Positions 2,045-44,992 of a stretch of DNA of 64,000 nt are shown here, one piece after another. Under the pieces are notes generated by a model. The model did not search any database. It was not told the origin of the DNA and saw only the letters and a program-made list of their open reading frames with translations. The position numbers and the translations under genes were made by a program. Positions within the stretch are counted from its first letter, which is position 1. The number at the start of each line of letters is the position of its first letter. The DNA is taken from contig CANNAM010000014.1 of assembly GCA_947502595.1 (NCBI GenBank), forward strand, positions 1-64,000, given 5' to 3'. Origin of the DNA: an uncultured Marinicella sp. (lineage in GTDB: Bacteria; Pseudomonadota; Gammaproteobacteria; Xanthomonadales; Marinicellaceae).

Positions 2045-5000
2045 GTGAAAAAGTTTAATTTTATATTGAAGAGTCGTGGGTTGGCTTGGGTATTGCTGTT
2101 TTTAAGTAATCCATTATGGGCCATTGATTTAGGGGTTACTTTGGGCACCAGTCCAAGTACATTTGAACCAGGTTCTTCACAGTCCAATGCATATTCAGTG
2201 GTTATTTCAAAGCCAGATGGGACAGGTGATGTCACTGGAATAGAAGTGACTACAGCTTTCACAGGCAGTACTGACGCCATATCATCTTTAACTTGGTCCT
2301 GTACCGCATCAGGCGCATCAAGTTGTGACTCATCAGGTGCTACCACCAGTTTAGATTCATTTACCATAGATTTTGATTTGTCAGGAGACGGCAATGATGT
2401 GACCATTGCTGTCACCAGCGTCACCTACAGTTCAGATATATTCAACGACTTAGACTTTAATGCAGAGATAAGCAACGATGGTGACACCAATGACACCAAT
2501 AACAGTAATGACAGTGTAACCGCAACCATTGGTCGTGCTTCGGTTACCGACATCAGTATTTCTGTCACAGATTCCCAATCAAGCTACACACCAGGCACAG
2601 CTGCTGCTTATAGCATAACCGTAGCCAATGCAGGACCCAGTGACGCACAGGGGGTTGGTGTAATTGATGGCACACCGCTCCCTAACGGGTTGAATATCAC
2701 AGGATGGTCTTGTACCCCAGATGCCAATAGTTCGTGCTCATCAGCTGTAGGTGGCCCTAATGTGAGTTTGTCAGTGGACTTGGCCAGTGGTGAAGAGGCT
2801 GATATTGTGGTTTCCGGTAATTATGATTCTGGTGCCACGACAGATCCTTTGGTTTATACAATTCAATCCAGCATCACAGATGCAGATGCAACTGATCCTG
2901 ATGGTGCGACTTCCACTGATACAGATTCAAACAAAATTAACCCAGTGTCTGATTTATCAATTTCGGTCGATACAGCTGTTTCAGCCACCACAAATTACAC
3001 GCCAGGTACTACAGAAACTTACACAGTTGTGGTTACCAACTCAGGACCCTCTGACGTTTCAGGGGTAACTGTAACTGATAATAGCTTGACAGAATTTGAC
3101 AGCATCTCTTGGACTTGTATGGCGGATGCCGGCAGCAGTTGTGTCAACGGTACAGGTGATTTGACTACCTCAGCAGACCTAGAAAGTGGCGATTCTGTAA
3201 CCTACACGGTATCGGTTGGTTATGCTTCTAGTGTGATTACTAACCCACTGGAGTATTCAGTAACTGCCACCAACCCCAATGACAACAGTGGAAATTCACC
3301 CGTTTCAGGTAATAAATCATTGGGTTTGAATTTGGTTTCAAATCTGGCGGTGACTTTAGATGATGGTACTGATAAATACGTGCCAGGACTGGGCGGAACT
3401 TTCACTGCTACGGTGACCAATAATGGTCCATCTGATGCCATAGGAGTGACCGTAATGGACAGTGCTTTGAGTGAAATATCGGACATATCTTGGACCTGTA
3501 GCGTGACCGAAAATGACAGTAGTTGTACGGCGGGACCACTCACCTCGGACATCAACACCATTGTTGATTTGGTGGCAGGAGACTCGGCCGTTTTTACTAT
3601 TGATGTCAATTACTTATCCAGTGCCACAAGCAATCCTTTGGTGTATCAAGTAACCGCCACCAATCCAGACGAGGTGAACGGAACATCTCCTGCCACTGGA
3701 ACTGATAACGACGATGAGTTGAAACGTGAAGTGGATATCACTGTCACTAAAACAAGTAAAGTAGATGGCTTAGGGCAACCTGGTTCTTATGTACCTAATG
3801 AACCATTTGAATACACCATAGTGGTTAGTAATGCTGGGCCCAGTGACCTCGGTGCTCCAGGGAATGGTCCTGATTCTGCAGAAAATGTACTGACCTTAAG
3901 CGATGTGATAGACAATAGTTTGGCTGAGCACCCTTCGCAATGCGGTCAAGGTGGCAGTGTTCCATGTTGGAAGTATTGTCCAAGTGATTCGGGCGTTAAT
4001 GGCTCAAACATCAGTCCGGATAACTGTGATGGCTTTATAGACATCACCACTGGCTTTGGTTACCAAATGGTAGTGCCCATGCACTTATCAGCGGGGAGTA
4101 GCTCTGAGATTAAAGTTTACGCTCGGGTGACTGAATCCACAGGCAGTGATTGTGTGTTAAACAATGGCATAAACAGAGAGCTGTGTAATACGGTCACTGC
4201 AGAAATTACCGGAGTCAATACCGAGCATACAGGAAACATAAGTCAATTAACCAGTTCTGTTTCTAACCCTATTGTGATTGGCACTGATTTGGTGGTCACT
4301 AAATCAGATGGATTAACAGCCGCATCACCAGGCACTGAAATCAGTTACGAAATAGTGGTTCGTAATGACGGGTTTACAGATGCCAATGGTGTTACTTTCA
4401 GTGATGTTTTGCCACTTTATCCAAATGAATCTGCGGGTTTTGTTCCTGGCAGTATTTCTTGGGTATGTGAAACAGAAGATGAAAATGCATGCTGTGTTGC
4501 TTCAAGTACTTCTTGTGGTTTAAACAGCCCTGTTATGGGTTCTGGTGACGCCTTACAAACCACCATTGATTTAGGTGGACAGTCCCAAGTCACTTATACA
4601 GTATCTGCTACCATCAGCAATGCAGCCACCGGTACCCTCAGCAATACAGCCACCGCGACCTTACCAGCTGGAATCGATGAAACAGATGAGAATAATAATT
4701 CTGCCACAGATGATGACACAGAATTAGGCGCAGAAGCCGATGTTGCAGTAAGCAAAACTTTGGTTGATGCAAGTAGCAACACTGTCACTGGAGTGACTAC
4801 TTTGCAATACCAGATTGTAGTTAGCAACAATGGTCCGTCCTTTGCCAGCAACATAGAAGTAGATGATTTACTGGATGACAATGAAATAGATTTGGCAACA
4901 GCATCTTGGTCGTGCACCATCCAAGGGGTGGGTAACTGCGATCAGCCTGGCCCAGTTACAGCCAGCGCCATTGACACATCCGTAAATTTAGCAGTCGGTT

Positions 5001-8000
5001 CAAGTGCTACTTTTGCATTAACAGTCAGCACCAATCCATTCTCTCAGGGTACAGTGGTCAATATTGTCAACGTCACTCCCGGACCCAATGCTTACTTTGA
5101 CCCAATTTCAATCAATAACTCAGCAGCAGTTGAATACGCTTTATCTGGCACTTCTCGATTACGGATTGATAATGATGATGCTTTAAATACTGCCACTCCT
5201 GGGTTACCAACCAATTACACCATCAGGGTGCAAAACGAAGGTCCTGACAATGTTTTCGGAGCCACAGTAGAAAATTTATTTCCGCCACAATTGACCAATG
5301 TAGAGTGGACTTGTAGTGCCATCTCTCCAATTCCTGGAGACCTAACGTTTTTCCAATCATCAGACCAAACCAGTGCTGGCACTAACATGCTTCTGAGCCC
5401 AGATGGCAGCCATATTTATGTGTCATCACCAGACCCAGATGGCACAGCTCCATTTGAAGGTCGTTTGTATGTGTTTGAACGCAACACCATTCCTGGTGCC
5501 AACTACGGTCAAATTTCATTTGTTGAATTTTTACGCCAAGACGAAAATGGCATAGATGGCATCGCTTCGATTCAAGAGTTACAGATGAGCCATGATGGGG
5601 CTTATTTGTATGCGTTGTCTGCAGAACCAGATGATGCCAATGCTGCTGTAGCAGCGTTTTCCAGGAACAACAACCGCCTTTCACCTGATTATGGTCGTTT
5701 GACATTTTTGAATGCAGTTGACAATGAAATGCCAGTAGCTGCTGTAGACATGCTGTTAACCACCGACCAAAAACAACTGTACATTACTGGTGATGATGAA
5801 ATCATTCGTTATGCAAGGGATGTGGGCACAGGTTTATTGAGCCATCAATCAACGGTTGCTGCCACTGTAGCAGGTCATATGGCCATCAGTGCAGATGGTA
5901 CCAACCTCTATGTGGTAGATGAAATCACTGATCAAATCGATGCCTATAACCGTGAAACAGATGATTCAGGCGCTACTTTCGGTGACTTGAGCAGCTTTGA
6001 CAGTGTGGTCAATGTAGACATTGATGCGGTCAGCGACATGATCATCAGTGCCGATGGCAAAAGTCTTTATTTGGCGGCAAAAGGCAGCAGTAATCTGGTG
6101 GTAATCAGTCGCGATCTTGCTTCTGGTGAAATCAGTCATGCAGCCAGCTATGATGACGCATCGCTGGCTTTTAACCCAACTGAAACGTTGGTGGGTTTGA
6201 GTCAATTATCGCTCAGTCCAGATGGGGAACATTTGTTTGTCAGTAATCCGATAAATGCCGACCCTACAGATGGCAGCTTGTTGGTTCTCAGTCGCAACAG
6301 CCAAGGGTTACTGAGTAAAGATCAAAAACTTTCACTACAAGGTATGCAAGGCTTAAGTGATGTGGTGGTAACCCAAGATGGCAAACAAGTGTTGACCACA
6401 GCCACAGACGGCAAAACCTTGATGGCATTTGATCGTCGGCAACCGGACCCAACTTTTTCATTTGTTGAGGCGGAAATCAACCTACAAAATGATCCAGCAG
6501 ACGATGCGGGTGTAGTAGATGGCTTGTTAGGAGCTGCTGCTGTGGTGGTCAGTCATGATGGCGCCAATGTGTATGCAGCCGCCATTGGCGACAATGCCAT
6601 AACTGCCTTTGTCAGAGACCGCAGCAAAGGTTCAACTGCATTGACTCGAGGCCAACACCTGTCATTCATTGAAAGTTATCAAAACGGTCAATCAGGTATT
6701 ACTGGAATCGACGACATCAATTCATTAGCGATATCACCCAATGGCGACTTTGTTTTTGCCGGTAGCAGAGACCAAAGTACATTGGCCGTATTCGAGCGGG
6801 CCGTGGATGGAACCCTGAACTTTGTTAGCAGTTATTCACACACTGCCAATATGACCGATGGATTGTTGGGTATTTCAGACATTACAGTGAATAAAAACTC
6901 ACAAGACTTGTATGTGGTGGGGCAGTTTGAGGCTTCAGTGGCACATTATACGATCAGTTCGACAGGTCATTTAACTTTAGTGAACGCCATTGCCAATGGT
7001 GACCTTGGAGTCAGTGGTTTGGCTGGTGCCCGAACTGTAGCTCTTACCCCAGGTGAAGATCATTTGTTGGTTGGTAGTGGTATTGATGACAGCCTAGTGG
7101 TGTTTAAGCGTTCATTGGTCAATGGGCAAATAAATTTCCAACAGCACCTACCAGGCGTGGGTGATCAACCCATGGATGTGGCTGTTGCGCCAGATGGAGA
7201 ACATGTTTATGTGGCATCGGCCAATGACAGTCGATTGACGGTCATCAATCGTAACAATAACGTGGCATCTGCCGAGTATGGACAGCTGTCTATCAATACT
7301 TCATATGTAGACGGGGTTAATGGATTCGATCGATTATTGGGCTTACGGGCAGTGGTGGTCAGTCCTGATGGAGAAAAAGTTTATGTGGGGGCTGAGTTTG
7401 ATGCGGCTGTTTCTGTTTTAGACCGAGACAGTAATCCCAACAGTGCCAGCTTTGGACAGTTGGCTGTTGTTGAAGTCCAGGTAGATGATGTCGATGGCGT
7501 CAATGGACTGAACCAATTATATGATTTGGCTGTAAGTCGTGACTCACGGCATGTTTATGCAGTGGGTTTTGGTGACAACGCCTTGGCTGCTTTTGTACTT
7601 GGAGAAGGTTCCTCTTGTAGTGCACAGGGCAGTGGTAATATCTCAGATGGTGTTGATATTGGAAGCAATGGCACTTTGACTTATTCAGTCACTGGAAAAA
7701 TCAGATCCAATGCAGTAGGTGACATCATCACTGAAGCCAGAATTATTCCGCCTGCAAATTTTACCGTTGACAGTCCATTGGACAACTGTGCCAATCCTTC
7801 AAGCTATGCAAATGATAATTGTGATCAAGACATCACCGCATTGGTTCCTATTACTGATTTGTCGATCAGCAAAACCAACGGACAACTTTCTGCCATAGCT
7901 GGTGAACCCATTCAATATGAAATTCGGGTCAGTAATGCAGGTCCTAGTGACGCCAACACCAGCAGTGCTGAAATGGTGATGGTGAAAGATGTATTGAACG

Positions 8001-11000
8001 CAGGCTTCGAACCTGGATCAGTGTCTTGGACTTGTGAAGCCGTGGGTTCAGGAGCGCTGTCCTTTGTTGACGCTGTGATCAATGAACAGAATGGTGTAGA
8101 TGGGTTGCTTGGGGTTTCCTCGGTTACTTATGCTGAAGATTTGGCGGGTTTAGGACCACATGTTTTAGCCACCAGTGTGATAGACAATGGGTTGTTGGCA
8201 TTTTCTGTTGATGTGATGAATGGCCATCTGACCCAAGTATTGCCTGTAGTCACTGCTGCCTCTGGCATCAGTTTAAATGGGGCACGTGATGTCTTGGTAA
8301 TTGATAACGACGTCTATGTAGTCAGTCAAGTTGATGATGCCTTGGTTGCTTTCAAAGCACAAAACAATGGCGGTTTGGAACTTCAGTGGGTTGAAAATCA
8401 TCAATTTCCTGCCGTTAGTTTTGGCTTGAATCAAGCCGTATCGGTTACTGCATCCGCTGCTGGTAATCATCTTTATGTGACCGGTGCCAATGATGATGCT
8501 GTGGTGATTTTTAGCCGCAATTTAGGCACTGGCGTGCTGACTTACAGCAACACTGTGACAGGAGTTAACCAAGGTTTAAATGGCGTCAACGCCATGGCCG
8601 TGTCTGCCGATGGCTATTCAGTTTATACCAGTGGTTATAATGACAATGAAGTGGGTGTCTACCGCCGCGACTTGGTCAGTGGCGACCTGACATTCATGGA
8701 AACGCTGAATATGTCAGGTGTTGACTTTAATGCAGTCAGTGCAATCAATATTTCACCAGATGATCAACATGTGTATGTAACCAGTGCAGGCAATCACCGG
8801 GTTTATGCTTTTGCGCGTGAAACCAGTGTGCCCACATCATCTTCAGATTATGGTTCGTTAACTGCGCTGCAAACTATACAACAAGGCGTGGCTGGTGTGG
8901 GTGGCTTGTTGATGCCTTCGGATGTCATTATTTCAGCAGATGGCAGACATGTGTATGTCAGCTCTGAACAATCAGATGCTGTGGTGTGGTTTTCGCGCAA
9001 CATGGCCACAGGTGAGTTGGTCTATGGTGGAATAATCAGTGACTTGGTGTCCTCTGTCAACGGTTTAAATGGCGCCATCGCTTTGGCTGCAGATCCAAGC
9101 GGTCAGTACATCTATGTGGCTGGCAGTCAAGACCATGGTATCGCTGTTTTAACCCGCTCTGCAGATTCATATTGTCCTTCATCAGGAACTGGTAATGTGG
9201 CTTCAAATTTTGGTTTAATCGAAGCCGGTGTGGCTGTAGATTTAGCAGTTAACGGGCAATTAATTTTTACCGTTAATGCCACTGTGGCTGCTGATGCCAC
9301 TGGTACATTAGTTAATGAAGCACGGGTGCTCAGTTGTGAATTACCTTTGGCTGATCCAGTTGAAAGTTGTTTGGGGTCTGATCCTGTGACAAACAATAAC
9401 TTGGCTATCGACTCTGATGCCCTGAATCCAACTGCTGATTTGATGATCAGCAAGACCGATGGTATAGCTGTGTATGAAGGACTGACCAGTGCCAAACAAG
9501 TGACTGGTGATGAACATTACTTGTATGTTGCAGCAGCCCAAGACAATGCCATCAGTATGTTTAAACGTGAAGTAAATTCTGGTGGTGCTGACTATGGTTT
9601 GTTGACCTACATGGGGGCCAAAACAAATGGTGTAGCGGGCGTTTCTGGGTTGTTGGCAACCTCAGATGTCTTGCTCAGCGATGATGGACAAACCTTATAT
9701 GCAGCGGGCAGTGGTGATAACTCAGTTGTGGTTTTCAGTAAAGCCAGTGATGGTCAATTGACTTTTGTTGAAAAACACACCAGTGGTGTTTTTGGGGTGA
9801 CTGGCATTGAGGGCATTTCATCGTTGTTCCTGTCGGCTGATGGCGCGCATTTGTATGCCACCGGACCATTGACCAATTCACTGGTTGTATTTGCAGTCAA
9901 TCAAACCAGTGGAGCGGAACATGGTCAACTCACTTTCATCCAGCATTTGCAAAATGCAGTGGATGGCGTCAGTGGTTTGGCCAGCGCAAGCTCAGTACTG
10001 GTTTCACAAGACAATATGCACGTTTATGTGACATCTGAATCTGGACATTCAGTCAGTTTATTTTTGCGTAACCCCAATGACGTCAGCGTGTCATTTGGGC
10101 AGTTGAGTTACCAAACCACCTATGTCAATGGTGCAAATGGTGTGGCGGGCCTTATGGGGGCTAAAAAAATGACCATGGACAGCAACAACGACTACTTGTA
10201 TGTACTGGGTGCAGTAGATCAGTCATTGGCAGTATTCAGTAGGGACAGCAGTACTGGAGAATTGGATTTTGTAGAATTTAAGCAAAATGGCACCAGTGGT
10301 GTGGTTGGCCTGAATCTGGCTCGTGATTTAGTCATCAGTGCAGACCAACAATCACTTTACGTGGCCGGTCGTGGTGAAAATGCTTTGGTCAGGTTCAACC
10401 GGAATAACGCTGATGGCACTTTAACTTTCGCAGCAGTAATCAATGATGGTGACCCATTGGCACAACCAGGCACGTTTGTGGATGGCCTATCCGGCGCGGC
10501 TGGCTTGTTGTTGTCCAATGATGATAATCACCTTTATGTGGTGGCTGATCAAGACCATTCGATTGCTGTGTTTGATCGGGACAGCAGCAGTGCATTGCCC
10601 GATTTAGGTGCTTTAAGTATCAGTGATGTGCTGATTAATGGACGTGGTGGCGTGGCCCCAGGCTCTGAAGTAACCTATTTTATTGTGGCCAGTAATGCCG
10701 GTCCCAGTGATGTCGAAAAGGCACGGATAGTGGATGTCTTTCCGCCTGAATTTGAAAATATTTCATACCAGTGTTTCCCCGTCAATGGCGCTGGTTGTAA
10801 CACCTCTGTACAGCACAGTAATGTTGATGAGTTGGTAGACTTACCTGTGGGTTCATCGGTAGAAATCAGAGCCACAGGGGTGTTGAGACCTGATGCGCAA
10901 GGGGTGGTAAGTAACACGGCCACAGTGATGTCATCAACCAATCCTATTTTTGCAATCAGTGACCCAGATTTGTCTAATAACAGCGCTACTGATGATGACA

Positions 11001-16623: not shown

Positions 16624-18428
16624 ATACTCAAACAATGACCGCTCAACTAAACAAGAACACTGGAGTTCAGAACATGAAGAATAAGCTTAATTTCATTATG
16701 CTGATGGCGCTGAGCCTGGGTTGGATGTCTACAGCCTTTGCTGCAGTAGCCACCATGCAACAAACATTTGATTTAAAGCCTGGCTGGAATGCCATATATG
16801 TGGAGTTAGAGCCGACAGAAAATCGCATAGAAAATATATTTTCAGGTATTCCAGTGCGCAGTGTATGGCGCTGGATACCTGGCAAGTTGGGTAAGGACTT
16901 TATTCAAGATCCAGCTGAAGGTTTGTTGTCATTGGACGGTTGGTTTGGTTACTTTCCTGAGCCTAGACCCGAGGCCTTTTTAACCAATTTATACACCTTG
17001 TCTGCCAATACTGCATATTTGGTGTACTTGGATGACAATCAAAATCGAAGTTTCAACTTAACTGGGCAACCAGTTTATTCAGCCATCAATTGGAGAACCA
17101 ATGGATTTACGCTGACAGGATTGCCTGTTAACCCAGGTTCAGAGCCCAGTTTTGCTGATTATTTTTCATTGTCGACCCAGCATGCCAATCAACCCATATA
17201 TAAACTCAACGCAGCAGGGGTATGGGAGCAAATCACAAATTTAAGCAGTACAGTTATCAAGTCTGGAGAAGCTTATTGGGTTTATACCGATGGCATTTCA
17301 AACTACCCTGGCTTAATTGATGTCAAACTACAACAAGGTGAAAGTTTAGAGTATCGAACTATATTTACTGAGATGAATTTTATGCTCAGTAACACCAGTG
17401 ATGTGACCAATTTTGTTCGTTTGGATCGGGTGGGAGGCAACAACATGCCGATGAAATTCCTCAATGTTGATCCTGAGTCTGGAGAAGAAGCTTGGCCAGA
17501 TTTACCCAATAGTCGGGTCATTGAATTGCGCCCTGGTGAAGATGTGGTCGTCAGCTTGGCTGTGGATCGAGGTAATTTCAGTGAAGAGCGCATGGAGCAA
17601 ATTTTCAGCATCAGCAATGAACAAGGTGTCAGGCACTTGATTCATGCTGGCGCTTCAACCATTCAACCATTGTCTTTACCCACTCGAGGCATGTTAAAGC
17701 GTGGTATCACTCAAGCACCAGCATCTAATGCAGGTTTGTGGGCCGGTAGTGTTCAGGTCAAAGGAGTCAGTGAAGCACAAAACAGCGGGGTTGAACCTTT
17801 GCCAGTAGGCAAACCTTTTGCTTTTAGGGTGCTGATTCATATTGACGCCACCGGCACCGCACGGTTGTTAAAAAATGTGGTGCAGATGTGGCAAGAAGGC
17901 AGTTATACACCCAGTGCCACCAATCCTGATTACCTTGAAGTGGATGTGCCAGGCAATTATGTATTATTGACGGATGATTCTTTGATTCCAAACTATTCAG
18001 GGGTTACCGTCAGGAGTGGTCAGTCTGCCGGCATACGCTTCAGTACCATTGGATATGACTTCAATGGCAATGACGTAGAAATGTCGGGTGAGTTTGCTGT
18101 TGGCAATTCATTGAGTGTCAGTTTATTGGTGGATTCTGATTTGCCGACCAACCCTTTTTATCATAAATACCATCCCGATCATGACAATTTGGATGCGCAG
18201 TTTTTAAATTATAAGCAGGAGGCTTTCCAAGTCACCAGAGAAATGCAGTTCTTATTCAGTCAACACAACCCCAACTACCCGGATGTTCAAGACCCGCCTG
18301 GTTGGGGTTATCAGGATATGGGCGGGGTGTTTCGTGAATCCATTTCTGGGTTACATAAAAACACCATTTTCATCGAAGGTGAATTTCGACTTCAACGAGT
18401 TGCAGCAACTGCTGTGCTGAACCAATAA
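16620..18428 (+). CDS. Secreted protein of the giant operon, unknown function
   Basis: 602 residues from ATG 16620, which overlaps the preceding stop (ATGA) and has a strong GGAGG site six bases upstream. An internal ATG at 16674, with GGAG eight bases before it, would give a 584-residue form starting directly with the signal peptide (LNFIMLMALSLGWMSTAFA). From 16620 the signal peptide has an unusually long n-region of 18 residues. The mature part has many aromatic and Gly residues (LKPGWNAIYVELEP; PTENRIENIFSGIPV; RSVWRWIPGK) and looks all-beta. The sequence TRGMLKRGITQAPASNAGLW around the middle may open a second domain. I recognise no family. Its place between a foldase and the 2.8-kiloresidue protein suggests a subunit of the same secreted assembly. 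Confidence 0.75.
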   Translation: MNTQTMTAQLNKNTGVQNMKNKLNFIMLMALSLGWMSTAFAAVATMQQTFDLKPGWNAIYVELEPTENRIENIFSGIPVRSVWRWIPGKLGKDFIQDPAEGLLSLDGWFGYFPEPRPEAFLTNLYTLSANTAYLVYLDDNQNRSFNLTGQPVYSAINWRTNGFTLTGLPVNPGSEPSFADYFSLSTQHANQPIYKLNAAGVWEQITNLSSTVIKSGEAYWVYTDGISNYPGLIDVKLQQGESLEYRTIFTEMNFMLSNTSDVTNFVRLDRVGGNNMPMKFLNVDPESGEEAWPDLPNSRVIELRPGEDVVVSLAVDRGNFSEERMEQIFSISNEQGVRHLIHAGASTIQPLSLPTRGMLKRGITQAPASNAGLWAGSVQVKGVSEAQNSGVEPLPVGKPFAFRVLIHIDATGTARLLKNVVQMWQEGSYTPSATNPDYLEVDVPGNYVLLTDDSLIPNYSGVTVRSGQSAGIRFSTIGYDFNGNDVEMSGEFAVGNSLSVSLLVDSDLPTNPFYHKYHPDHDNLDAQFLNYKQEAFQVTREMQFLFSQHNPNYPDVQDPPGWGYQDMGGVFRESISGLHKNTIFIEGEFRLQRVAATAVLNQ

Positions 18429-18438
18429 GGAGTTGGCT

Positions 18439-21400
18439 GTGATTAATACAATAAATAAACTTAACGGTAGAATTAACATGAAAGCATTTTTCTTAACCGG
18501 CATTCTGATGTACTCCACACTGGGTTGGGCGGCTTGGCCAACAGGTGTTGGTGGACCCAGTGATGAAACCGTCGTTGATTCAGTGACCTCTATGACTGGG
18601 CACACTTTTGTTCTCGGTCAATTCCAAGGGACAGCTGTATTTGATGGTATAGAACTTAACAGCCAAGGCTTGAATGATATTTACATTCTTAAGTTAAACA
18701 GTGGCGGAACTGTTGAGTGGGCACTGCGAGCAGGCGGACCGTCAGATGACTTGCCCAAAAGTATCACAACAGATGCTGCAGGTAATGTATACATTGTAGG
18801 CGCTCATTATGGTGTTAGTCGATTTGGTAGTGATGATTTGGTTGCCAGCGATGGAGTAAAAAATGGTTTTTTGGCAAAAATAAACTCAGCAGGCAGCTGG
18901 CTTTGGACCAAAGAAATTGGTAAAGCAGGTTATGAGAGTGACGTCATTGATGTTAAGTCGGTTGAAGGTGACAGTGGGGTTATACCCCCAGTAGAAGGAT
19001 CAGTTTTTATAACTGGTTATTTCAGACAGCAGATTGATATAGCGAATCACCAGTCTTTTAATTCTGGCTTGGGCAGTGAAAGTTCCGAGCTGCTGGTTGT
19101 TCGGTTTCAACAAGACGGCGATTTCGTTTGGGCCCAGCACAGAAACCAAAGCCGCGCTGAATTCCCAACGGCTATGGATGTAAGTGATGAAGGAGTGTTG
19201 TATATCACAGGTAATACCACCGGGGTTGTGGATCTCTACAATGAAGATTTTGAGGGTATCAGTGGTGACATAAGAGGGTATGGTTGGAGAAGTAACTGGA
19301 ACCCCACTGCTTGTCCGAACCCTGGGGTCAGTGGTTGGGCAGGGCAAAGACATTATGGTGTGCGCGCACATAACAAGCCGGGTAATAGCAGCAAGGACAT
19401 GTACATGGGGGGAACGCCCTCCAATGAAGGAACTTCTAGCTATTTGAATGGTTTGGCCTTGGTCAGTCCAAAATTCAACTTGGGTCAGGGTGGTAATGTA
19501 ACCATTTCTTTCGATGTCATTGAAGGCCGATCTCCCTTTTCAGAGCCGCCAGATCAAGGTGAAAATTTGTCTGTTTACTTGGTCCCAGGTAATTACAACC
19601 CACCTGGTGGCACTACATTATATGACGGTCACCCTTATCCATTATTGGGGGATGTGGATGGCAATACGGCCAGTGTTTGGAAGGGTGGTGACAGCAGAAC
19701 CAATGGCACTTATACTTACACAATCCCCGGTAACTATTACGGCTCAGGGGCTAAACTGATGTTTGTTAAAAACGTCAGTTCAGGTTCTTGTTATGATGCT
19801 TGGCATGTGGATAACCTGATTGTTTCTGGTTCAGCACCTGCTGAAAACTTTGTGTTTGAGGTGGTCAACACCAATGCAAGCACGCCAACATTTAATGCAG
19901 CAAAATCAATCTCCAGCGCCATCAGCATCAGCGACATGGTGTTCGACAATGTCAGGGACAGTGTCATCATCTCAGGAACCAATAACTCCGATGGCACAGC
20001 ATTTTGTGACTCAAACAGCATGCCATCTGGCAGCATCTTAGCCAGTTATGGTTCAGATTTAGCCTGTGATTGGGTTAAACACCCGAACACAGCATCTGCA
20101 TCTGTTGGTACAGGTGTGACTGTGGATAACGATGGCAATATATACCAAACAGGCTACTTTAAGGACGCGATGACTTTCCCTGTTGATAAGCAGTGTATTC
20201 CAAATACTGGCCTTGATCCGGTCGATGAAACAATCTATTCAGCCAGTGAGTTTGATGATGTATTTATGGTGTCATTCAATCAAAATGGCGTGGCATGTTG
20301 GTTGACAGGTGGTGATTATTACGATGAAACAGATGGTTATCCAGCCATTATGGGTGACATCGAAACAGAAAAAGGTGTTTCCATCACCACCGATGGCATC
20401 GGCAGCTTAATTATTGCCGGTCAAATGGAATCCAGCATAGTTTTAGGTTTGGATAACCGCGTTGATGGTCAAGGTGGAACAGATGTATTTATCACCAATT
20501 GGGGTTTAGATGGTCGACCTTTTCAGGTTGAGTCTTGGCCCGTAGGTGTGGCTTTGGTGCCACCTCCTAATGCCGTGGTGAGTGAACTGACTGCAGTGCC
20601 GGAATTTTTCAGAGACGGTGAAGTGGTTAATGCTTTACAAGATAAACTGTTCTATTGGCAAGGTCCAATTGGGCAAGAAGGCAGTGCCAACTACCGAGAA
20701 GCACAGCTAATTCCATTGCGTCCTTTTGGTGAAATAGAAGTCCACTGGCGAATTTCTGCAGATGCCACCAATCCCAATCGAGTCATCACCTCAGGGGTGG
20801 CGAACTGGCCTGGTCAACAATGTGATAACTTGACGTTGACTTCAGAATGTTATCAATTGCACGCAGCAGGTGCGCCTGTTGAAATTGAACCTGCTTCAGG
20901 CGAGTACCTGTTTTTTGATTTGGCTTATGGCAGCGGTGATGCCATCGTTAATAACAAAGTGTTCAATAACAACTTGTCTGGTTTCTCAACCTTGGTTTAC
21001 CTTAAAGGGCCATCGCCAGATGTAACCTTATACCCAATTGTGATTGAGGTGGTGAGGTCAGTTCCTTTTAATACATTGAGTAATTTTGATGACAATGTGG
21101 CGTGGGAAATTGGTAAAAAAGTAACCGACGATTACCACAATGAAGTGGGTCGCACAGGTTATGTATTAAATGAATTGGCTTATTATGACGGCACGGGCAT
21201 CAGTTCAGCTTACAATCGCTCGGCAAGAACAGGGCAAATTTTACCGGTCAATAGAATTGTTTCTTCGCGACCACAGGATGTAGGCAGAGAGTTATCAGTG
21301 GCTTGGTACCATAACAACAGTCGAGGCGTGTATTGGCCAGACCGTGCTGTTCGGTACGACCCACAATGGCCTTTCGATCCTGATAAGATCATCATTGCCA

Positions 21401-24400
21401 GTCAGTTTGGTGGTGAAGTTTTGGGTCAAGATCCACTGGATCCTCTGGCTTACCCATCGGCATTGATTTACATCCAATCGGATCCGAGTTTGCCAGGCTT
21501 TAACCCCAATGATGAACATGCTTTATTCGCACCATCCAATACCGGTACAGGCCATGAAGCCATATTTGCTTTGCGTGCTGATTTTGGTTCGGAATTGGTG
21601 GGTGACAGCAGTGCTTCATCTGATCCTTATGTGTTGGTGAAATACTATGATGAATCGGTACTTGAATGGAAAATGCGGGTTTATGAAGTGTTGGCCACAG
21701 GTGCTGGTTTTAACAGTTTTCAATTCACAGGCTTAGCCGCCACCACAGTTTCACCACCTTACCCTGTTAGGTTGTTGCCATCTTGTGCCGAAAGCCGAGC
21801 AGTGGGTCAAGCCCAAGGTGAACAGCCACCACCGCCATTTTTCCAAGACTACAAAGCACAGATATGGGCTAAATCAGCTGGCAGTGGCGAATTGTTATAC
21901 CATTACCCGCTACAGCCTGGCTTCTTTTATGATCTGGATAACAATGATGTGCAAGATGACATCAATGCAGACGGCAGTCCTGATTTAGACAGCACCTGTG
22001 TGCCTTGGTTGGCACGCTTATCGGAAAGCAAAGGTGGTACCGCTAACCCCACTGATCCGATTAAGATCAGGTACGACATCACATGGCCAGCAGATGTACC
22101 TCAGTTGGTGATTGGTGAAACATTATTAACCCCTAAGCGTGGCTTGCCAGACATTGTTAACCAAGCGGCTGCACAAGTGGTGTTTGATGGTCTTTACAAT
22201 TCACTGTCAGAGCCATTACCCAGTGATACACTGGCACAAATGATTGATCCATTGACGCCTCGTTTTGTGCGGCTGGATGAAATACCTGAGGCAGTAGCTA
22301 CAGAATTACAAACCACTGGTTTTGAATTGATTCTGGGATCAGCTGATGGCTCAATTAACTTACCAGCAGCGATTAAAAAGCGCATGTCATATGATCCGTT
22401 GAACAAAAAGCTCATACTGCAAGGCTTGTTCGATGAAACTGGCGCGGGTGAACCGCTGTTGGTGCTCAATGTGTTATCAAAAACAGATCGGGTGGCTTTG
22501 AAAAAACTCAATGGTGGCAACGGTTCTGAAGAGTCTTCGTTTACCGGGGATTGTAGTGACAATGGTTGTAACTGGGATCAAGCCATCGAGGCCTTGTTCC
22601 GTCTCAGCCGGAACCCCAATGGCATCCAACGAATTTGTACCAACTCTACTGTTAATGACAACAATGTACGTGAATGTCAGGCTTCAAACCCTGTCACTGC
22701 AGATGATGTCTTGATTGGTTTTCAAGACAGTAACAATGATTACGTGCTTGAACCATTCACTGCTGTGGGTGCAAGGGCTGCATTGACTGCGGGTAATGCC
22801 CAAGGCAGTGGATTCATGACATTGGCATTCAACAACGACCCTTCGCTGACACCTTTGCCGGTCAGTTTAAATATCATCCGTGTTGATTGTTTGCAATCAC
22901 CGCCACCACCTGTGCTGCCTGGTGATGCTGATATTTACTCCAGTTACCAAGGACAACTACAGGTAATCGCCCCAGAAAATATCTTTGATGAACAGGTGGT
23001 GTTGCGTCATTCGGGTGATTTTGGTGGTAATCCAGATGCCTTAGAATTTGAATGGTTTTTCCATCCAGATGAAGATGGCACCCCACCTCAGCCATTACCT
23101 GACCCCAGCAGCGGGCAGCTCAATGGATGGATTAAATACCCAGTCAGTGAACCTTTGGGGGCCAATGAAATCACCATTGCTGGAGCCAACATCCAAACTT
23201 TATCAGATAACTGGTATGTGGCCAGATACCGTGGCTTACCAGCCTGTAACAACGGATCCGAATGGAGCTTATGGGCTGGACAACCTGGTGCCACACCATT
23301 AGACCAGCGGGCTCAGCTGGCAGAAGGTTGGGTTAAGCGGGTATTGAAACGATTGAATCCTTTTGAAGCCAGGGTACAAAATTTTGCCCAAGCTGAAACC
23401 AATAACTATGCCAGCATGTTGATTCAGCTGGGTGAACGTTATGAGGGTGACATTGCGATGAACAATGACCCTGATAACCTGAACAGCATTGGTTTAATTG
23501 AAGCCTATACCACGGTGATGCGACGGGCGATGTCACTCAGTGTCGATTCAACGCCTCCGGTCAACTACGATCCTGCCAACAATGCCATATTATTAGTGGC
23601 CTCTAGGTTGGTTGATTTTTACACCTTGTTAGGCAATGAAGCATATGCCGACGCCCAAGATCCGATGATTGGGATCACCACAGAAAATGGTGTGGTTTCA
23701 CTGGCGCCGACCATCTTCAATTTTCAGAACCAGTTGGACTCTTTGCTGACTGAGGAGTTGGTCCTGTTGCGCGGACGTGACGACAGCCAAGGGCCAGTTG
23801 CGGCCAATCCTGTGTACAACCGTTTGTTTTGGAATTTCACCACCGGTGATGGCGAAGTGGCTTATGCTTTGTCTTATAACATCTCGGACCAAAATGCTTC
23901 GGGTGTGATTGATGAGTTTGATGCCAGAATCCAGTTTCCACAAGGACATGGCGATGCATGGGGGCATTATTTAACCGCCACCGATATTTATTATGAATTG
24001 CTGCGCCATCCTTTTTACAGTTGGAACCCCAGAACAGAGGCCATCACCATTGCTGGTGCACCCAATCAAGTGGATTTCTTGGATGAAAGACAATTTGCTG
24101 AAACAGCTGCGGCCAAAGCCAGAACGGGCGCAGAAATTGTTGATTTAACCTACCGTTCAGCTTATGTTGAGGACCCAGCAGGTCAGTACCAAGGTTATGT
24201 GGACAGCAACCCTGATCGTGCTTGGGGTGTATCAGGATGGGGCCGCCGTGCAGGCATGGGGGCTTATTTTGATTGGGTAACGGCCAATGCCATCATACCT
24301 GCTGAAGACCCAGACCCCAGTCATGTGGGTATTCAACGAATTGAACGTAAAAACATCTTGGAGTTGGATAAAATTGCTTCACAATACCTGGAAATCCAAG

Positions 24401-26913
24401 GGCAGATTGATGAAACAGATCGGGGCTTAAATCCCCTGGGTTTAGCCAGTGGTGTGGTGCCATTTGACATTGACCCAGCTTTGTTGAATTCAGGTACGAA
24501 CAGTAAATCGCACTTTGAGCAAGTTTATGCCAGGGCCGAACAGGCTTTAGATAATGTCATCAGTGTTTGGGATTTTGCCAACCAAATTAATAACATGATG
24601 CGGCAGAATCAAGACAGTGTAGATAACCTAAATGACAATGCTGTTTATGAGGAAAATGATTTCAATAATCAATTGATTGAGATATTTGGCATGCCTTACG
24701 ATGACGACATTGGTCCTGGTGGCACTTACCCATCTGGTTATGATGGGCCTGACCTGTATCATTATATGTATATAGACAGCCCCGCATTGGCAGGTACGCC
24801 ATTTGATTTTTCTTGTACTGAAACAAGCAATGGCAATTGTACAGGTTACGATCCAAGCAGTGGCACAGTGGCGGTGGTTAATGAATACGTTGGATCATAT
24901 GCGCCGATTGCAGGTGGCGTCAATTTTTTCAATATGGGAGCGGCCGAAGTCAATGCGCCTAACGAAGAGTCAGGTTGTGGTGACAATGCACTTGGAGCAG
25001 GTTGTGCATTGGGCACTTTGAGTAACAACAATCTAGAGGTCACTTACCATACTGTTGAATCAGCCGACCTGGGATTTGCTTTTGCTAAGCCTGCAAGTTG
25101 GACAGGCTCCAGACGAGCTGTGGGGCGTTTGCAGGAAGTTCAGAATGAAATGGTTCAGGCCAGAGTGGCTATCAAACAAGCGATGATTGATTATGACATC
25201 TTACGCAAAGACATCAATTCGCAAGTTGATACCTTACGTGCAACATTTGATATATTAGAGTCTAATATTGATATTGGTAACGATGCCACCAATACCATTT
25301 TAGGTATCGAAGCAGGTGTCTTTGCCATTCAAACCGCAGCAGCGATTGCACACCGAACGGCCAAAGGCCTGTCCACCTCATTCAAAGCTGCCAAAGAGTG
25401 TATACCTAGTAATATGATTGCTGGTTTGGCAGGTGGTGGTGATTTGTTCTCCACTGTGAAGTGTGCCACCCAATCAGTTGGTAATGTGGCTGCTTTTGTG
25501 GTCGACACAGTGGGTGATGGACTGGATGTTGCTGCCAATGGTGTGAACCTGTCTATCAACCATGTGGCCACGGCAGCTGAAACTGAAGTGCAAATCAATG
25601 ACGCCAACCTTGAGCTGTATAATGTTTCTGGTGGCATTGATGAATTGTTACGGCGAGAACCGGCCTTGCGTGCAGAAATTTATGCCCGCGCTGAGTCTGC
25701 CAGACAATTGATCGGTAAATACAACACCACATTGACTCAAGGTTTGCAATTGGGTGAAAAATTAGTGGCCTTCAGGCGTGGTGGCGCAGCTGCTATTCAA
25801 GAGTACCGCTATGAAGACATGGCTTTCAGAATTTTCCGCAACGATGCTTTACAAAAATACCGGGCCGCTTTTGATTTGGCTGCCAGGTATGTCTATATGG
25901 CAGCCGCAGCGTATGATTATGAAACCAATTTACTCGGCACAGACTCGCAAGCAGGACAGTCGTTTCTGACTGATATAGTAAAAGAGCGTTCCATTGGTCA
26001 AATCTTAAATGGTGAACCGGTGGTTGGTTCACGTGGTCTGGCAGATGCCATGGCCAGGATGAAGTTAAATTTTGACGTGCTCAAAGGGCAGATGGGTTTC
26101 AACAATCCACAAGTCGAAACCAATCGTTTCTCCTTGCGCTATGAATTGTTCAGAATTGAAGATGATGAAGCTGCTGATGACACTTGGCGCGAACAGCTTG
26201 AGGCCACACGGGTTAACAACCTTTGGGACATTCCCGAATTCAGACGTTATGCCCGACCCTTTGCACCAGAAGAAGCTGGGCCTCAACCAGGCTTGGTGAT
26301 TACTTTTGACACCAATGTGCTGTTTGGCTTGAACTTCTTTGGTAATGAGTTAGGACCCAATGACAGTGCGTATGATTCGAGTCAATTTTCAACCCGCATC
26401 CGTGGCGTAGGGACTTGGTTTGAAGCGTATGCCAATTTGCCTTTGGCCAATACGCCTAGAATGTATTTGATTCCAATAGGTGCTGATGTGATGCGTTCAC
26501 CCAATGCCGATGATTTCAGCGTGCGGCAGTGGCAAATACTCGACCAAGTCGTACCTGTGCCACTGCCACTGGGAGCAACGGATTTAGATGCCCATGATTG
26601 GTTGCCTTCGATTGACAACCAAATCGGTGATCCTACACAAATTCGTCGTTACTCTCAGTACCTGGCGCATCATTTCTCAGAACCTTTTGATATCGATCAA
26701 GTGGCAACCAGTTCTCGCTTGATTGGGCGTTCTGTATGGAACCGCAAATGGATGATGATCATCCCTGGAGCCAGTTTCCTCAATGATCCGAATCAAGGTT
26801 TAGACACCTTTATTCATGGGCAGCTCATACCCGGTGGGGATGGGGAGCGAGATGGCAATGGTGTGAATGACATACACCTGTTCTTTACCACTTATTCTTA
26901 CTCAGGAAATTGA
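18439..26913 (+). CDS. Very large secreted protein: SBBP-like N-terminus, helical C-terminal third
   Basis: About 2824 residues. GTG 18439 is preferred because AAGGAG (18427-18432) ends six bases before it; TTG 18433 has no room for that site. ATG 18478 would start right at the signal peptide (FFLTGILMYSTLGWA). Residues about 20-720 carry SBBP-like beta-propeller repeats (VWALRAGGPSDD-type blades, D-x-x-GN-x-Y-x-x-G) interrupted by a lectin-like segment around residues 265-450. A Ca-binding-like run (DLDNNDVQDDINADGSPDLD) lies near residue 1160. Residues about 1500-2200 are Asp/Asn-rich with long helices. Residues about 2230-2560 are strongly helical (coiled-coil-like QEVQNEMVQARVAIKQAM, then Ala-rich membrane-like segments). 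The last 200 residues look beta-rich (GRSVWNRKWMMIIPGASF; end TYSYSGN). No enzyme motif found. The stop overlaps ATG 26910. Confidence 0.75.
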   Translation: MINTINKLNGRINMKAFFLTGILMYSTLGWAAWPTGVGGPSDETVVDSVTSMTGHTFVLGQFQGTAVFDGIELNSQGLNDIYILKLNSGGTVEWALRAGGPSDDLPKSITTDAAGNVYIVGAHYGVSRFGSDDLVASDGVKNGFLAKINSAGSWLWTKEIGKAGYESDVIDVKSVEGDSGVIPPVEGSVFITGYFRQQIDIANHQSFNSGLGSESSELLVVRFQQDGDFVWAQHRNQSRAEFPTAMDVSDEGVLYITGNTTGVVDLYNEDFEGISGDIRGYGWRSNWNPTACPNPGVSGWAGQRHYGVRAHNKPGNSSKDMYMGGTPSNEGTSSYLNGLALVSPKFNLGQGGNVTISFDVIEGRSPFSEPPDQGENLSVYLVPGNYNPPGGTTLYDGHPYPLLGDVDGNTASVWKGGDSRTNGTYTYTIPGNYYGSGAKLMFVKNVSSGSCYDAWHVDNLIVSGSAPAENFVFEVVNTNASTPTFNAAKSISSAISISDMVFDNVRDSVIISGTNNSDGTAFCDSNSMPSGSILASYGSDLACDWVKHPNTASASVGTGVTVDNDGNIYQTGYFKDAMTFPVDKQCIPNTGLDPVDETIYSASEFDDVFMVSFNQNGVACWLTGGDYYDETDGYPAIMGDIETEKGVSITTDGIGSLIIAGQMESSIVLGLDNRVDGQGGTDVFITNWGLDGRPFQVESWPVGVALVPPPNAVVSELTAVPEFFRDGEVVNALQDKLFYWQGPIGQEGSANYREAQLIPLRPFGEIEVHWRISADATNPNRVITSGVANWPGQQCDNLTLTSECYQLHAAGAPVEIEPASGEYLFFDLAYGSGDAIVNNKVFNNNLSGFSTLVYLKGPSPDVTLYPIVIEVVRSVPFNTLSNFDDNVAWEIGKKVTDDYHNEVGRTGYVLNELAYYDGTGISSAYNRSARTGQILPVNRIVSSRPQDVGRELSVAWYHNNSRGVYWPDRAVRYDPQWPFDPDKIIIASQFGGEVLGQDPLDPLAYPSALIYIQSDPSLPGFNPNDEHALFAPSNTGTGHEAIFALRADFGSELVGDSSASSDPYVLVKYYDESVLEWKMRVYEVLATGAGFNSFQFTGLAATTVSPPYPVRLLPSCAESRAVGQAQGEQPPPPFFQDYKAQIWAKSAGSGELLYHYPLQPGFFYDLDNNDVQDDINADGSPDLDSTCVPWLARLSESKGGTANPTDPIKIRYDITWPADVPQLVIGETLLTPKRGLPDIVNQAAAQVVFDGLYNSLSEPLPSDTLAQMIDPLTPRFVRLDEIPEAVATELQTTGFELILGSADGSINLPAAIKKRMSYDPLNKKLILQGLFDETGAGEPLLVLNVLSKTDRVALKKLNGGNGSEESSFTGDCSDNGCNWDQAIEALFRLSRNPNGIQRICTNSTVNDNNVRECQASNPVTADDVLIGFQDSNNDYVLEPFTAVGARAALTAGNAQGSGFMTLAFNNDPSLTPLPVSLNIIRVDCLQSPPPPVLPGDADIYSSYQGQLQVIAPENIFDEQVVLRHSGDFGGNPDALEFEWFFHPDEDGTPPQPLPDPSSGQLNGWIKYPVSEPLGANEITIAGANIQTLSDNWYVARYRGLPACNNGSEWSLWAGQPGATPLDQRAQLAEGWVKRVLKRLNPFEARVQNFAQAETNNYASMLIQLGERYEGDIAMNNDPDNLNSIGLIEAYTTVMRRAMSLSVDSTPPVNYDPANNAILLVASRLVDFYTLLGNEAYADAQDPMIGITTENGVVSLAPTIFNFQNQLDSLLTEELVLLRGRDDSQGPVAANPVYNRLFWNFTTGDGEVAYALSYNISDQNASGVIDEFDARIQFPQGHGDAWGHYLTATDIYYELLRHPFYSWNPRTEAITIAGAPNQVDFLDERQFAETAAAKARTGAEIVDLTYRSAYVEDPAGQYQGYVDSNPDRAWGVSGWGRRAGMGAYFDWVTANAIIPAEDPDPSHVGIQRIERKNILELDKIASQYLEIQGQIDETDRGLNPLGLASGVVPFDIDPALLNSGTNSKSHFEQVYARAEQALDNVISVWDFANQINNMMRQNQDSVDNLNDNAVYEENDFNNQLIEIFGMPYDDDIGPGGTYPSGYDGPDLYHYMYIDSPALAGTPFDFSCTETSNGNCTGYDPSSGTVAVVNEYVGSYAPIAGGVNFFNMGAAEVNAPNEESGCGDNALGAGCALGTLSNNNLEVTYHTVESADLGFAFAKPASWTGSRRAVGRLQEVQNEMVQARVAIKQAMIDYDILRKDINSQVDTLRATFDILESNIDIGNDATNTILGIEAGVFAIQTAAAIAHRTAKGLSTSFKAAKECIPSNMIAGLAGGGDLFSTVKCATQSVGNVAAFVVDTVGDGLDVAANGVNLSINHVATAAETEVQINDANLELYNVSGGIDELLRREPALRAEIYARAESARQLIGKYNTTLTQGLQLGEKLVAFRRGGAAAIQEYRYEDMAFRIFRNDALQKYRAAFDLAARYVYMAAAAYDYETNLLGTDSQAGQSFLTDIVKERSIGQILNGEPVVGSRGLADAMARMKLNFDVLKGQMGFNNPQVETNRFSLRYELFRIEDDEAADDTWREQLEATRVNNLWDIPEFRRYARPFAPEEAGPQPGLVITFDTNVLFGLNFFGNELGPNDSAYDSSQFSTRIRGVGTWFEAYANLPLANTPRMYLIPIGADVMRSPNADDFSVRQWQILDQVVPVPLPLGATDLDAHDWLPSIDNQIGDPTQIRRYSQYLAHHFSEPFDIDQVATSSRLIGRSVWNRKWMMIIPGASFLNDPNQGLDTFIHGQLIPGGDGERDGNGVNDIHLFFTTYSYSGN

Positions 26914-26915
26914 TC

Positions 26916-29171
26916 ATGAAACATTACAGATCACTGCTTGTATTGATTGTCACTTTAATGCTTTCCAGCACTCAAGTATCGGCAAAATTGTCACAACCTG
27001 ATTATGTGTTGTATGGCACTGCCACATGGTTTGGTGGCCCGTTGCCCACAGAGTCTGAAGTCAGTATATATTTAAACAACCAGCTGTTAACCGCGGCGTC
27101 CTATAAAATGGGTACCAACGATAACCTCAACGGCCTGTATGCCCTAAGGATACCGATGGACAGCAACGACCCCAGAACGTTTGGCAGCGCCAGGCCGGGT
27201 GATCCTGCCTCTGTATTTATCAATGGCAGCCTGGTAGCTGATGTTTTGGTGGGTGATTATGGTGTGGCAGAGCGCCTGGATATTGACCCCATCAATTTAT
27301 CTGCTAACACCTCGGTTATCACCTTGATGGCTGGTGAAGTGGTTGAAGGTAATGTGGGGCAAACCACTTTAACCATGCAAGTGCAATTGTCTAATCAAGC
27401 CGAAGCAGAAGTCAGTGTTGATTGGCAAAATGTCGATGGCACTGCCATCGGTGGCGACAGTTGTACCTTTGATGTGGATTATTTGAATACCAATGGTACG
27501 GCAGTCATCGGCATAGGTGAATCGCAAACAGACATCAACATTCAGGTTTGTGGTGACACTTTAATCGAAGCCAGTGAAACCTTTGATATTGTATTGAGCC
27601 AGGCAGAAAATGGTGTGATTCAGTTTGATCGTGCACAAGGGACTATTTTGGACGATGATGGTTTGCCACAATTGCATGGTTATGATGCGGTGATATACGA
27701 ACCCAGCTCTGGTGACTTGGTACATGAATTTGAGTTGCGTTTGTCGAGGGCTTATGAGCAAGCTGTCAGTGTGAATTACAACACTGTGGGCAACAGTGCC
27801 ACAGCAAATGTTGACTTTGTTGCCGCCTCTGGTACGTTGGTGATACCCGCAGGCGTTGTAACGGCCAGTATTCCAGTCACATTTTTAGCTGATGCAGAAG
27901 ATGAAGGCATTGAAATCATGACTGTTCAATTAAGTGCGGTGAATAACGCCACATTAGTCAGTAATGAATTAACCGCATTTATTCTAGATGCCAACCAAGA
28001 ACAACAAACCGAAGAATCTAATGTTGTCACCAACGAAGATGTACCTGATTTAATCAGTCCCTCGGACGTGCAATTCAGTGCCGATGGTCAATACTTATAT
28101 GTCTCTACTTTGCATGAGGGTGGCAGTGTGTTGCGCTTTGCTTTCAATAATGGCCAATTGAACCACCTTGAAACCATTAACAACATGACAGTCGGCTTTG
28201 AAAGCGGCTTGTTTGGTTTGATTCGTGATTTAAGCTTGTCTCCCAATGGGCAGTATTTATTTGCAGCAGCCAGTGGTGATCAAGCCATCATGTCTTTCAC
28301 TCGCAATGCCATTGATGGGACTTTAGTGCTTAACCAAACGGTGGAAAACAACCTGACTCAAGATTTTGGTATTGAAGGTGTTTATGGCCTGGCCATGAGT
28401 CCAGATGGGCAATTTATATATGCTGTGGGCAGCGAGTCAGATGCTTTGACCGTATTTGCTGTCAATGATACGGATGGCAGCCTAAGCTTTGTTGAAAAAG
28501 AGGTGTTAGGCATCGATGACCCAAGCGATGCAGGAGGACCGGTGGTTTTCATGGATCGCCCAATTGATGTCCAAGTTTCAGCAGACGGTATGCAGGTTTA
28601 TGTGGCTGCAGACTTTTCATCTTCGCTGGCGGTTTTCAACCGAGACCCACTGACCGGTGAACTGAGTTTTCAGGAAGCTTTCAAAAAAGGCGTCAATGGT
28701 GTGACCGGGCTTGGTGGGGCTGCAGCGGTGTGGTCCTCTAATGACAGCCGTCATTTGTATGTGATGGGACGAGGGGATGACAGCGTAGCAGTGTTCGACC
28801 GCAGTCCTACAGGAACCATTTCATTCAACCGTACATTGACGCAACAACAAGCTGACTTTATTGGCTTGAATGCGCCTTTGGCAGTGATTGGCTCACATGA
28901 TGACAGTCGTTTATATGGCTTGGGCTTTGATGATTCTTCACTGGTGTCATTCGAGCGAGTGGTGGACAACAATGACCCAAATTATGGTCAATTAACTTTT
29001 GCTGATATCGAGCAAGACAATGTCAATGACGTGAACTCCTTGGCAGGTCCTATCGCACTGGATTTGAACCCAGATGGTAAGTGGATTGTGGTAGCTGCTG
29101 GGATTGACAATGCTTTGAGTTTATTTAAAACACATTTAAATGATTTGATTTTCGCCAGTGGCTTTGATTGA
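26916..29171 (+). CDS. Secreted Calx-beta / lactonase-type propeller protein
   Basis: 752 residues from ATG 26916, which has AGGA eight bases upstream. ATG 26910 overlaps the previous stop but leaves almost no spacing to that site. A signal peptide (LLVLIVTLMLSSTQVSA) is followed by about 110 residues of unassigned sequence. Two Calx-beta domains follow (residues about 145-245 and 255-355; motifs TLTMQVQLSNQAEAEVSVDW, GTILDDD, EGIEIMTVQLS). Then comes one beta-propeller of about 370 residues with lactonase-like blades (SPNGQYLFAA, SPDGQFIYAV). It closely resembles the propellers inside the 4524-residue protein. The C-terminus is LIFASGFD, echoing FIFKDGFD in that protein. Calx-beta domains usually bind calcium. 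Last gene of the operon; an extracellular partner of the giant protein is likely but inferred. Confidence 0.85.
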   Translation: MKHYRSLLVLIVTLMLSSTQVSAKLSQPDYVLYGTATWFGGPLPTESEVSIYLNNQLLTAASYKMGTNDNLNGLYALRIPMDSNDPRTFGSARPGDPASVFINGSLVADVLVGDYGVAERLDIDPINLSANTSVITLMAGEVVEGNVGQTTLTMQVQLSNQAEAEVSVDWQNVDGTAIGGDSCTFDVDYLNTNGTAVIGIGESQTDINIQVCGDTLIEASETFDIVLSQAENGVIQFDRAQGTILDDDGLPQLHGYDAVIYEPSSGDLVHEFELRLSRAYEQAVSVNYNTVGNSATANVDFVAASGTLVIPAGVVTASIPVTFLADAEDEGIEIMTVQLSAVNNATLVSNELTAFILDANQEQQTEESNVVTNEDVPDLISPSDVQFSADGQYLYVSTLHEGGSVLRFAFNNGQLNHLETINNMTVGFESGLFGLIRDLSLSPNGQYLFAAASGDQAIMSFTRNAIDGTLVLNQTVENNLTQDFGIEGVYGLAMSPDGQFIYAVGSESDALTVFAVNDTDGSLSFVEKEVLGIDDPSDAGGPVVFMDRPIDVQVSADGMQVYVAADFSSSLAVFNRDPLTGELSFQEAFKKGVNGVTGLGGAAAVWSSNDSRHLYVMGRGDDSVAVFDRSPTGTISFNRTLTQQQADFIGLNAPLAVIGSHDDSRLYGLGFDDSSLVSFERVVDNNDPNYGQLTFADIEQDNVNDVNSLAGPIALDLNPDGKWIVVAAGIDNALSLFKTHLNDLIFASGFD

Positions 29172-44930: not shown

Positions 44931-44992
44931 TACCTGACATCCAGACGACTATGAACACCGTGGATGAAGTTAACTAACGAACCTTAATAACC

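Follow-up and report, generated by a model that had tools for sequence, protein, structure and literature searches.

Among the closest described counterparts of the system reported here are the A subunits of Tc toxins. In the TcA protein YenA2, pore helices at residues 862 to 1170 are followed by a TcB-binding domain at residues 1171 to 1343, according to an extract of PMC6486591, and an extract of PMC11435725 describes docking of TcB via a beta-propeller. Other points of likeness lead to the teneurin-like/RHS polymorphic toxins, here known from an extract of PMC13018210, to the giant surface proteins with DUF11, cadherin, or LamG domains covered by an extract of PMC11573180, and to the parvulin foldases of the PrsA/SurA type. 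We analyzed a block of five genes, A to E, in a stretch of 64,000 nucleotides (nt) from an uncultured Marinicella sp. (contig CANNAM010000014.1, positions 1 to 64,000), which is called the window below. Two of these genes, C and D, proved to be an almost obligate pair. Judging from sequence comparisons, they form a core that is found across phyla, usually followed by an E-type gene and often accompanied by B; gene A and the outer domains vary. We tentatively propose that the block encodes a secreted multiprotein complex built on C and D, in which D may work like a Tc A subunit.

The earlier note on this DNA had described a unit of five genes spanning 27 kb, and such a block was confirmed at positions 2045 to 29171. 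All five open reading frames (ORFs) lie on the plus strand, and each junction is an overlap or a 4-nt gap (A-B, -4 nt; B-C, -4 nt; C-D, +4 nt; D-E, -4 nt). The sizes proposed for A (4524 residues) and C (about 600) held, and those of D and E shifted from about 2824 and 752 to 2826 and 753 residues with the choice of start codon. Gene C (16620 to 18428) encodes a secreted protein of 602 residues that belongs to an undescribed family and ends in LNQ. Gene D (18433 to 26913) encodes a secreted protein whose N terminus is variable and propeller bearing, with SBBP beta-propeller repeats and one subthreshold Kelch match in Pfam, and which ends in TYSYSGN. The part common to D proteins across phyla, as delimited by match ranges, runs from about residue 755 to the C terminus at residue 2826 (20695 to 26910). 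Gene E (26910 to 29171) codes for a secreted protein with a conserved N-terminal domain of the P-x-P-...-YG type (26982 to 27299, approximate limits), which is conserved across phyla, followed by Calx-beta and a lactonase-type propeller identified by Pfam; its last residues are FASGFD.

The remaining two genes precede the C-D pair. Gene A (2045 to 15619), recognized as an ORF and by Pfam, encodes a secreted protein in which DUF11 repeats (13 stretches) alternate with lactonase-type beta-propellers (14 stretches), and which ends in FKDGFDGVVP. Gene B (15616 to 16623) encodes a membrane-anchored foldase of the PpiC/parvulin type, 335 residues long, with a proline-rich tail (..PPAMP..). Its assignment to the PpiC-type rotamases rests on Pfam matches to PF13145 (E-value 1.7e-13), PF13616 (E-value 4.5e-13), and PF00639 (E-value 4.1e-12). 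Sec-type signal sequences at the start of A, C, D, and E and a single membrane segment at the start of B were read by eye, without a predictor.

We searched the genomes of 61 relatives with D. Sixteen matched, but the match in G058 was confined to the N-terminal propeller, which leaves 15 genomes with D; a C profile found the same 15 genomes and no others. Within the genus, D is present in 8 of 18 genomes. The order A-B-C-D-E, with an A homologue as the first gene, was intact in all 11 relatives whose contig spans the whole block, with A-B spacings of -4 to +9 nt, and contig ends cut the block in three further relatives (G048, G008, and G038). Because gene order and near-zero spacing are kept in all 11 at a protein identity of about 30 to 79%, the arrangement is more than chance. 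The shared gene order that the earlier note had suggested looking for was therefore found in other genomes, where the homologues stand together and are not scattered. Identities to the nearest relative, G003, were highest for D (79%) and C (76%), followed by E (72%), A (65%), and B (64%), indicating that C and D are the most constrained. Downstream of the block lies a housekeeping neighbor outside the system, a pheA-type gene for chorismate mutase/prephenate dehydratase (29290 to 30378, plus strand). At this pheA site, two genus members (G013 and G010) carry other genes in place of the block, showing that it can be present or absent within the genus. The genome G004 (locus L180) is without C and D and has a 229-residue E-like piece 5' of pheA near a contig end, which is either a decayed block or an assembly break. 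No match to the D core was found in plasmids or phages, and none to C in plasmids, so that these searches gave no sign of a mobile element. A single-sequence search with C over the class matched 2 of 274 genomes, one being the window's own; this is no measure of rarity, as such a search is far less sensitive than a profile search.

When 84,980 species genomes were scanned with the D alignment, at least 543 stretches proved to encode D relatives, and 78 loci were kept. They come from Marinicella, Wenzhouxiangella, Chiayiivirga, many Verrucomicrobiota, Acidobacteria, Nitrospirae, Geobacter-like bacteria, Chloroflexi, Lewinella, Catenovulum, and a metagenome-assembled genome of Omnitrophota. Block-bearing Marinicella strains among them are M. 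sediminis F2, M. pacifica CGMCC 1.12181, M. marina X102, and M. gelatinilytica S6413. Over the C-terminal 1200 residues, 70 homologues are 41 to 86% identical to the window's D. Of the 54 kept loci with room to read, 51 have gene C upstream of D, at a distance of at most 4 kb; in the three exceptions it is found downstream (L091 and L119) or overlaps D (L070). Neighbors were counted in three samples of 65, 19, and 23 loci, the first from the 78-locus set and the last drawn regardless of neighbors, with three loci already in that set. An E-type gene directly follows D in 41, 11, and 9 of them, respectively, and a B-type PpiC gene is present in 28 of 38 kept loci with 5 kb on both sides. Over all samples, a co-directional ORF lies within 400 nt after 103 of the 107 D ORFs with 1 kb downstream, a total in which the tree reveals at least four genes included twice (L134 = L118, L143 = L074, L144 = L097, and L146 = L105). 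In a Verrucomicrobiota sample drawn regardless of neighbors, D was found in 17 of 145 genomes, the centre G333 included. Some genomes hold several D paralogues, with nine matches at eight places in G505 (L111) and five in G333 (L102).

The companions of this pair differ by lineage. Among the 78 loci, ORFs matching A stand 5' of B and C only in Gammaproteobacteria and two Acidobacteriota, which have giants of the DUF11/lactonase type near D. Elsewhere the giants near D have cadherin and Big domains (Cadherin_4/Big_9; L122), RCC1 and LamG (L089), Lcl_C/TSP_3/DUF11 (L080), or LamG/FG-GAP (L107). The idea of five genes forming one unit thus holds among the relatives, in 11 of 11 whole blocks, and gives way across phyla to a smaller core of C and D with an E-type gene and often B. 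The earlier note had also suggested that the foldase, encoded directly after the giant A, serves these proteins. B does belong to the conserved unit; as it also accompanies C and D in loci without an ORF matching A (e.g., L085, L105, and L122), its link to A is not the deepest one. B resembles the PrsA/SurA-type foldases in its PpiC rotamase domain and differs from them in being kept in an operon, often with a proline-rich tail, which a loose pattern detected in 28 of 49 complete B homologues. Other recurring ends are LN(Q) in 54 of 78 C homologues and YSGN in 56 of 114 complete D ORFs; we found no function for these three ends.

The parallel between D and TcA is one of layout only. Both are giant proteins with variable outer domains, and in D a predicted helical stretch is followed by a terminal domain, as in a Tc A subunit. 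Averaged residue propensities of 71 sequences suggest two helical parts at about residues 2227 to 2496 (25111 to 25920, plus strand), flanking a hydrophobic middle at residues 2287 to 2376. The aligned helical region measures 301 to 331 residues in all 71 sequences, and residue conservation drops to about 0.3 over it. The C-terminal domain, about residues 2530 to 2826 (26020 to 26910, plus strand), is partly beta-like by propensity, and 96 of 114 complete D ORFs stop exactly five residues past a conserved TY. The propensities and the conserved length of the helical region are consistent with the succession of a pore-forming helical hairpin and a C-terminal partner-binding beta domain that characterizes TcA, as far as residue propensities can tell.

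Likeness to Tc loci extends to the genes beside D. A profile search found a Tc-B-type gene directly after D, in the place often taken by E, in six loci (L084, L102, L109, L119, L121, and L137), and in a seventh (L091) such a gene follows C and an E-type gene. All four Tc-B-type genes scanned with Pfam (L084, L091, L109, and L119) combine SpvB, TcdB_midN, FG-GAP, and RHS matches. The gene directly follows D in 5 of 65 and 1 of 19 loci of the first two samples, and with L091 it stands beside D for 7 of the 107 D ORFs. A search for SpvB in 15 genomes yielded 11 genes; D clusters contain 8 of these, including two in tandem in G333. The slot after D, often filled by an E-type gene, can hold another kind, which is Tc-B-type in six loci. 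These seven loci also resemble those of the teneurin-like/RHS polymorphic toxins, with the difference that the RHS proteins are neighbors of C and D and not C or D themselves. One of them, a Tc-B-type/RHS protein encoded in L109 (15490 to 21633), carries a VanY-type peptidase domain at residues 1883 to 2006 of 2047, a feature that would suit an antibacterial role of this RHS protein. In contrast to Tc loci, most D loci, the window included, are without a Tc-B-type gene. The partners of D are instead C and, in many loci, an E-type protein, neither of which classical Tc loci are known to have. The domain content of A and of the variable neighbors is that of giant DUF11, cadherin, and LamG surface proteins, which here accompany a foldase and the conserved pair of C and D. 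Reports on such surface proteins are said to treat single genes.

Several results weigh against a TcA-like D. The helix and strand calls on D are residue propensities, and the protein has no significant match to TcA models or structures. Pfam tests for TcA covered 37 D pieces, 8 of which were rescanned singly, and 10 further pieces. The family PF18276 (TcA_TcB_BD) appeared in only 1 of the 37, with an E-value of 4.3. The best case, in one of the 10 further pieces, had an E-value of 0.071 and 12.6 bits against a cutoff of 25, and an unrelated family scored better there. Profiles built from five D alignments retrieved no TcA from the PDB, and the D profile missed the only TcA gene encountered above the Pfam cutoff, in G505. 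Since none of these comparisons placed D among the TcA proteins, it was not filed as one. Three weak TcA matches on D paralogues of G509 (E-values of 0.06 to 0.38), at the helix before the C-terminal domain, were taken as chance level, because only one of three G509 proteins scanned singly repeated the match, below an unrelated family. On the side of a TcA-like D, no recognized TcA above the Pfam cutoff was found in the 14 D genomes of a first set, among them six with a Tc-B-type gene next to D; a second set, which overlaps the first, has one in 1 of 31 genomes, on a contig without a D match.

The association with Tc-B-type genes is open to objection as well. The 23 loci drawn regardless of neighbors show no such gene. 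Of the seven Tc-B loci, six were the reason their genomes were searched further, and L137 was found afterwards. In a FastTree tree, read by its branching, the Tc-B-linked D proteins fall mostly into one clade, with L119 apart; this clade includes further D genes for which no Tc-B-type neighbor is visible. Three of the 11 SpvB genes stand away from D, in stretches that show no D. For the window, no TcB/TcC-type partner was found, as its genome (G000) holds no PF12256 or PF03534 gene; SpvB and TcdB_midN likewise had no match there. Among the relatives, PF12256 is present in 23 of 61 genomes, 4 of the 15 with D (never on the D contig) versus 19 of the 46 without, indicating no association with D.

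The inferred layout of D, which matches that of Tc A subunits, is what leads to the proposal that it works like one. A, C, D, and E would then cross the inner membrane by Sec, and B would fold the block proteins in the periplasm. C and D would assemble, D would act as an oligomeric scaffold with its helical hairpin as a central rod or channel, and the strictly ended C-terminal domain of D would dock the partner encoded next to it, as TcA holds TcB. Because no Tc-B-type gene was found in the Marinicella genome, docking there would involve the propeller-bearing E and perhaps A in place of a toxin cocoon, making the assembly a surface or released contact machine; there is no evidence for a toxin role in Marinicella. 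If D is such a partner-docking scaffold, it would link the foldases and RHS proteins of little-studied bacteria with their giant surface proteins in a single system, and there would be a testable route to the purpose of such giant genes. A bolder extension, which we consider doubtful, makes C and D the core of an undescribed secreted machine of many environmental phyla that acts like the syringe part of Tc toxins. It would be unrelated to that part in sequence or diverged beyond recognition, with a docking site that takes an RHS cocoon in one lineage and a propeller-bearing E-type protein elsewhere, including in Marinicella. On this view, partner-docking giants would be a wider class, mostly toxin free, in which the classical Tc toxins make up a single branch.

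A channel-free modular adhesin or matrix complex, which we consider neither more nor less likely than a complex with a TcA-like D, explains most of the data equally well, and these two readings differ in the predicted shape of D. C and D would form a wall-side stalk or lattice, the variable DUF11, propeller, RCC1, LamG, Ig, and cadherin domains on A, C, D, E, and their neighbors would bind surfaces, glycans, or cells, and the RHS proteins would be one more display module. That C and D stay constant while the neighbors of D change by lineage, down to the Tc-B/RHS type in seven loci, argues for such a complex, as does the lack of any toxin domain in A or E in Pfam. A passive stalk, however, would not be expected to show the constraint seen in the C-terminal 1200 residues of D, with their cross-phylum identity and fixed end, nor a length-conserved helical stretch with a hydrophobic middle.

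The exchangeable giants, set against a constant C and D, and the dedicated foldase would also suit a device for export or surface assembly made of B, C, and D, with A, E, and the giants elsewhere as its clients. We consider this unlikely. It is in line with the scan of the block and 20 neighbors, which showed no family of the TolC/ABC, two-partner, or S-layer kind, and with the variants of a tag, F-x-[DN]-G-F-[DE], that end A and E and are missing from C and D. Yet signal sequences were already seen by eye in each of the four large proteins, and Pfam showed no membrane-protein or barrel family in C or D. Away from A and E, moreover, the genome has 18 exact copies of the tag, and 46 of the 61 relatives are without C and D. 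Least probable in our judgment is that the operon merely co-regulates secreted proteins that form no complex. The complex is itself a deduction from sequence, which leaves room for this view, but the pairing of C and D across phyla and the invariant order with near-zero spacing in 11 of 11 blocks exceed what co-regulation usually keeps.

The block fits none of the secretion, adhesion, or toxin systems we compared it with, as the earlier note had maintained; the comparison comprised Pfam for the block and 20 neighboring genes, NCBIfam for A, B, C, and E, and PDB profile searches for C and D. C had no Pfam match, and its best E-values were 0.67 in the PDB and 0.092 in NCBIfam; 37 C homologues gave only scattered Pfam matches, such as a T9SS sorting tail in one. 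Profiles from five D alignments found only weak matches in the PDB, largely to helical or coiled-coil proteins over the predicted helical region, the best being ZorA (E-value 0.0087) over that same region. C and the D core thus match no described family in the Pfam and PDB searches; at about 600 and about 2000 residues, they represent two large families that are nameless in the libraries searched. No ABC transporter, adaptor, TolC, or RTX repeats of an RTX/LapA-type type I adhesin were found by Pfam in the five genes and 20 neighbors, and the signal sequences of A, C, D, and E, as read by eye, also argue against this class, which is defined by the lack of a Sec signal. Neither the TPS domain nor the POTRA/barrel partner of two-partner secretion was found in the same genes. 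In literature searches, which mostly reached papers outside subscription, the operon was not found described, including in the part of PMC7861908 that was covered. We provisionally regard the block as categorically new, and it could be a far-diverged relative of a known kind, for instance a Tc-like one.

The operon may extend into pheA. The gap between E and pheA is 118 nt, and of the terminator-like hairpins in the scanned stretch, the one with the largest number of G-C pairs lies 3' of pheA (30479 to 30496); terminator-like sites in that stretch were not in excess (16 found versus 15.0 expected). With the window counted, the block was read in seven members of the genus; pheA follows it in all seven and in none of the five other whole blocks of relatives. 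Beyond it are genes that Pfam assigns to fatty-acid or amino-acid breakdown. Among the 20 neighboring genes scanned, Pfam showed no transporter, pilus, or S-layer family, and one codes for a TonB-C-terminal protein.

The C-terminal tag F-x-[DN]-G-F-[DE]-stop is possibly a sorting signal. Its variants lie at 15580 to 15619 in A and at 29150 to 29171 in E. The 18 exact occurrences are DNA-pattern matches in any frame of the 3.2-Mb genome, and a backward control gave 0. About 90 nt 5' of gene A, we noted by eye a 22-codon ORF (1887 to 1955) whose product would be a hydrophobic peptide; a G-rich stretch lies before it. Farther upstream, the minus strand (562 to 1401) encodes a protein of 279 residues that matches nothing in Pfam or NCBIfam. 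Its start is signal-like, and its tail at the C terminus is basic and resembles C-terminal sorting tails. On the other side of the block, a cluster of partly overlapping genes at 37897 to 46774 encodes a CN_hydrolase, a protein with TPR and FG-GAP, a multihaem-cytochrome-like protein with TPR, and an FG-GAP protein.

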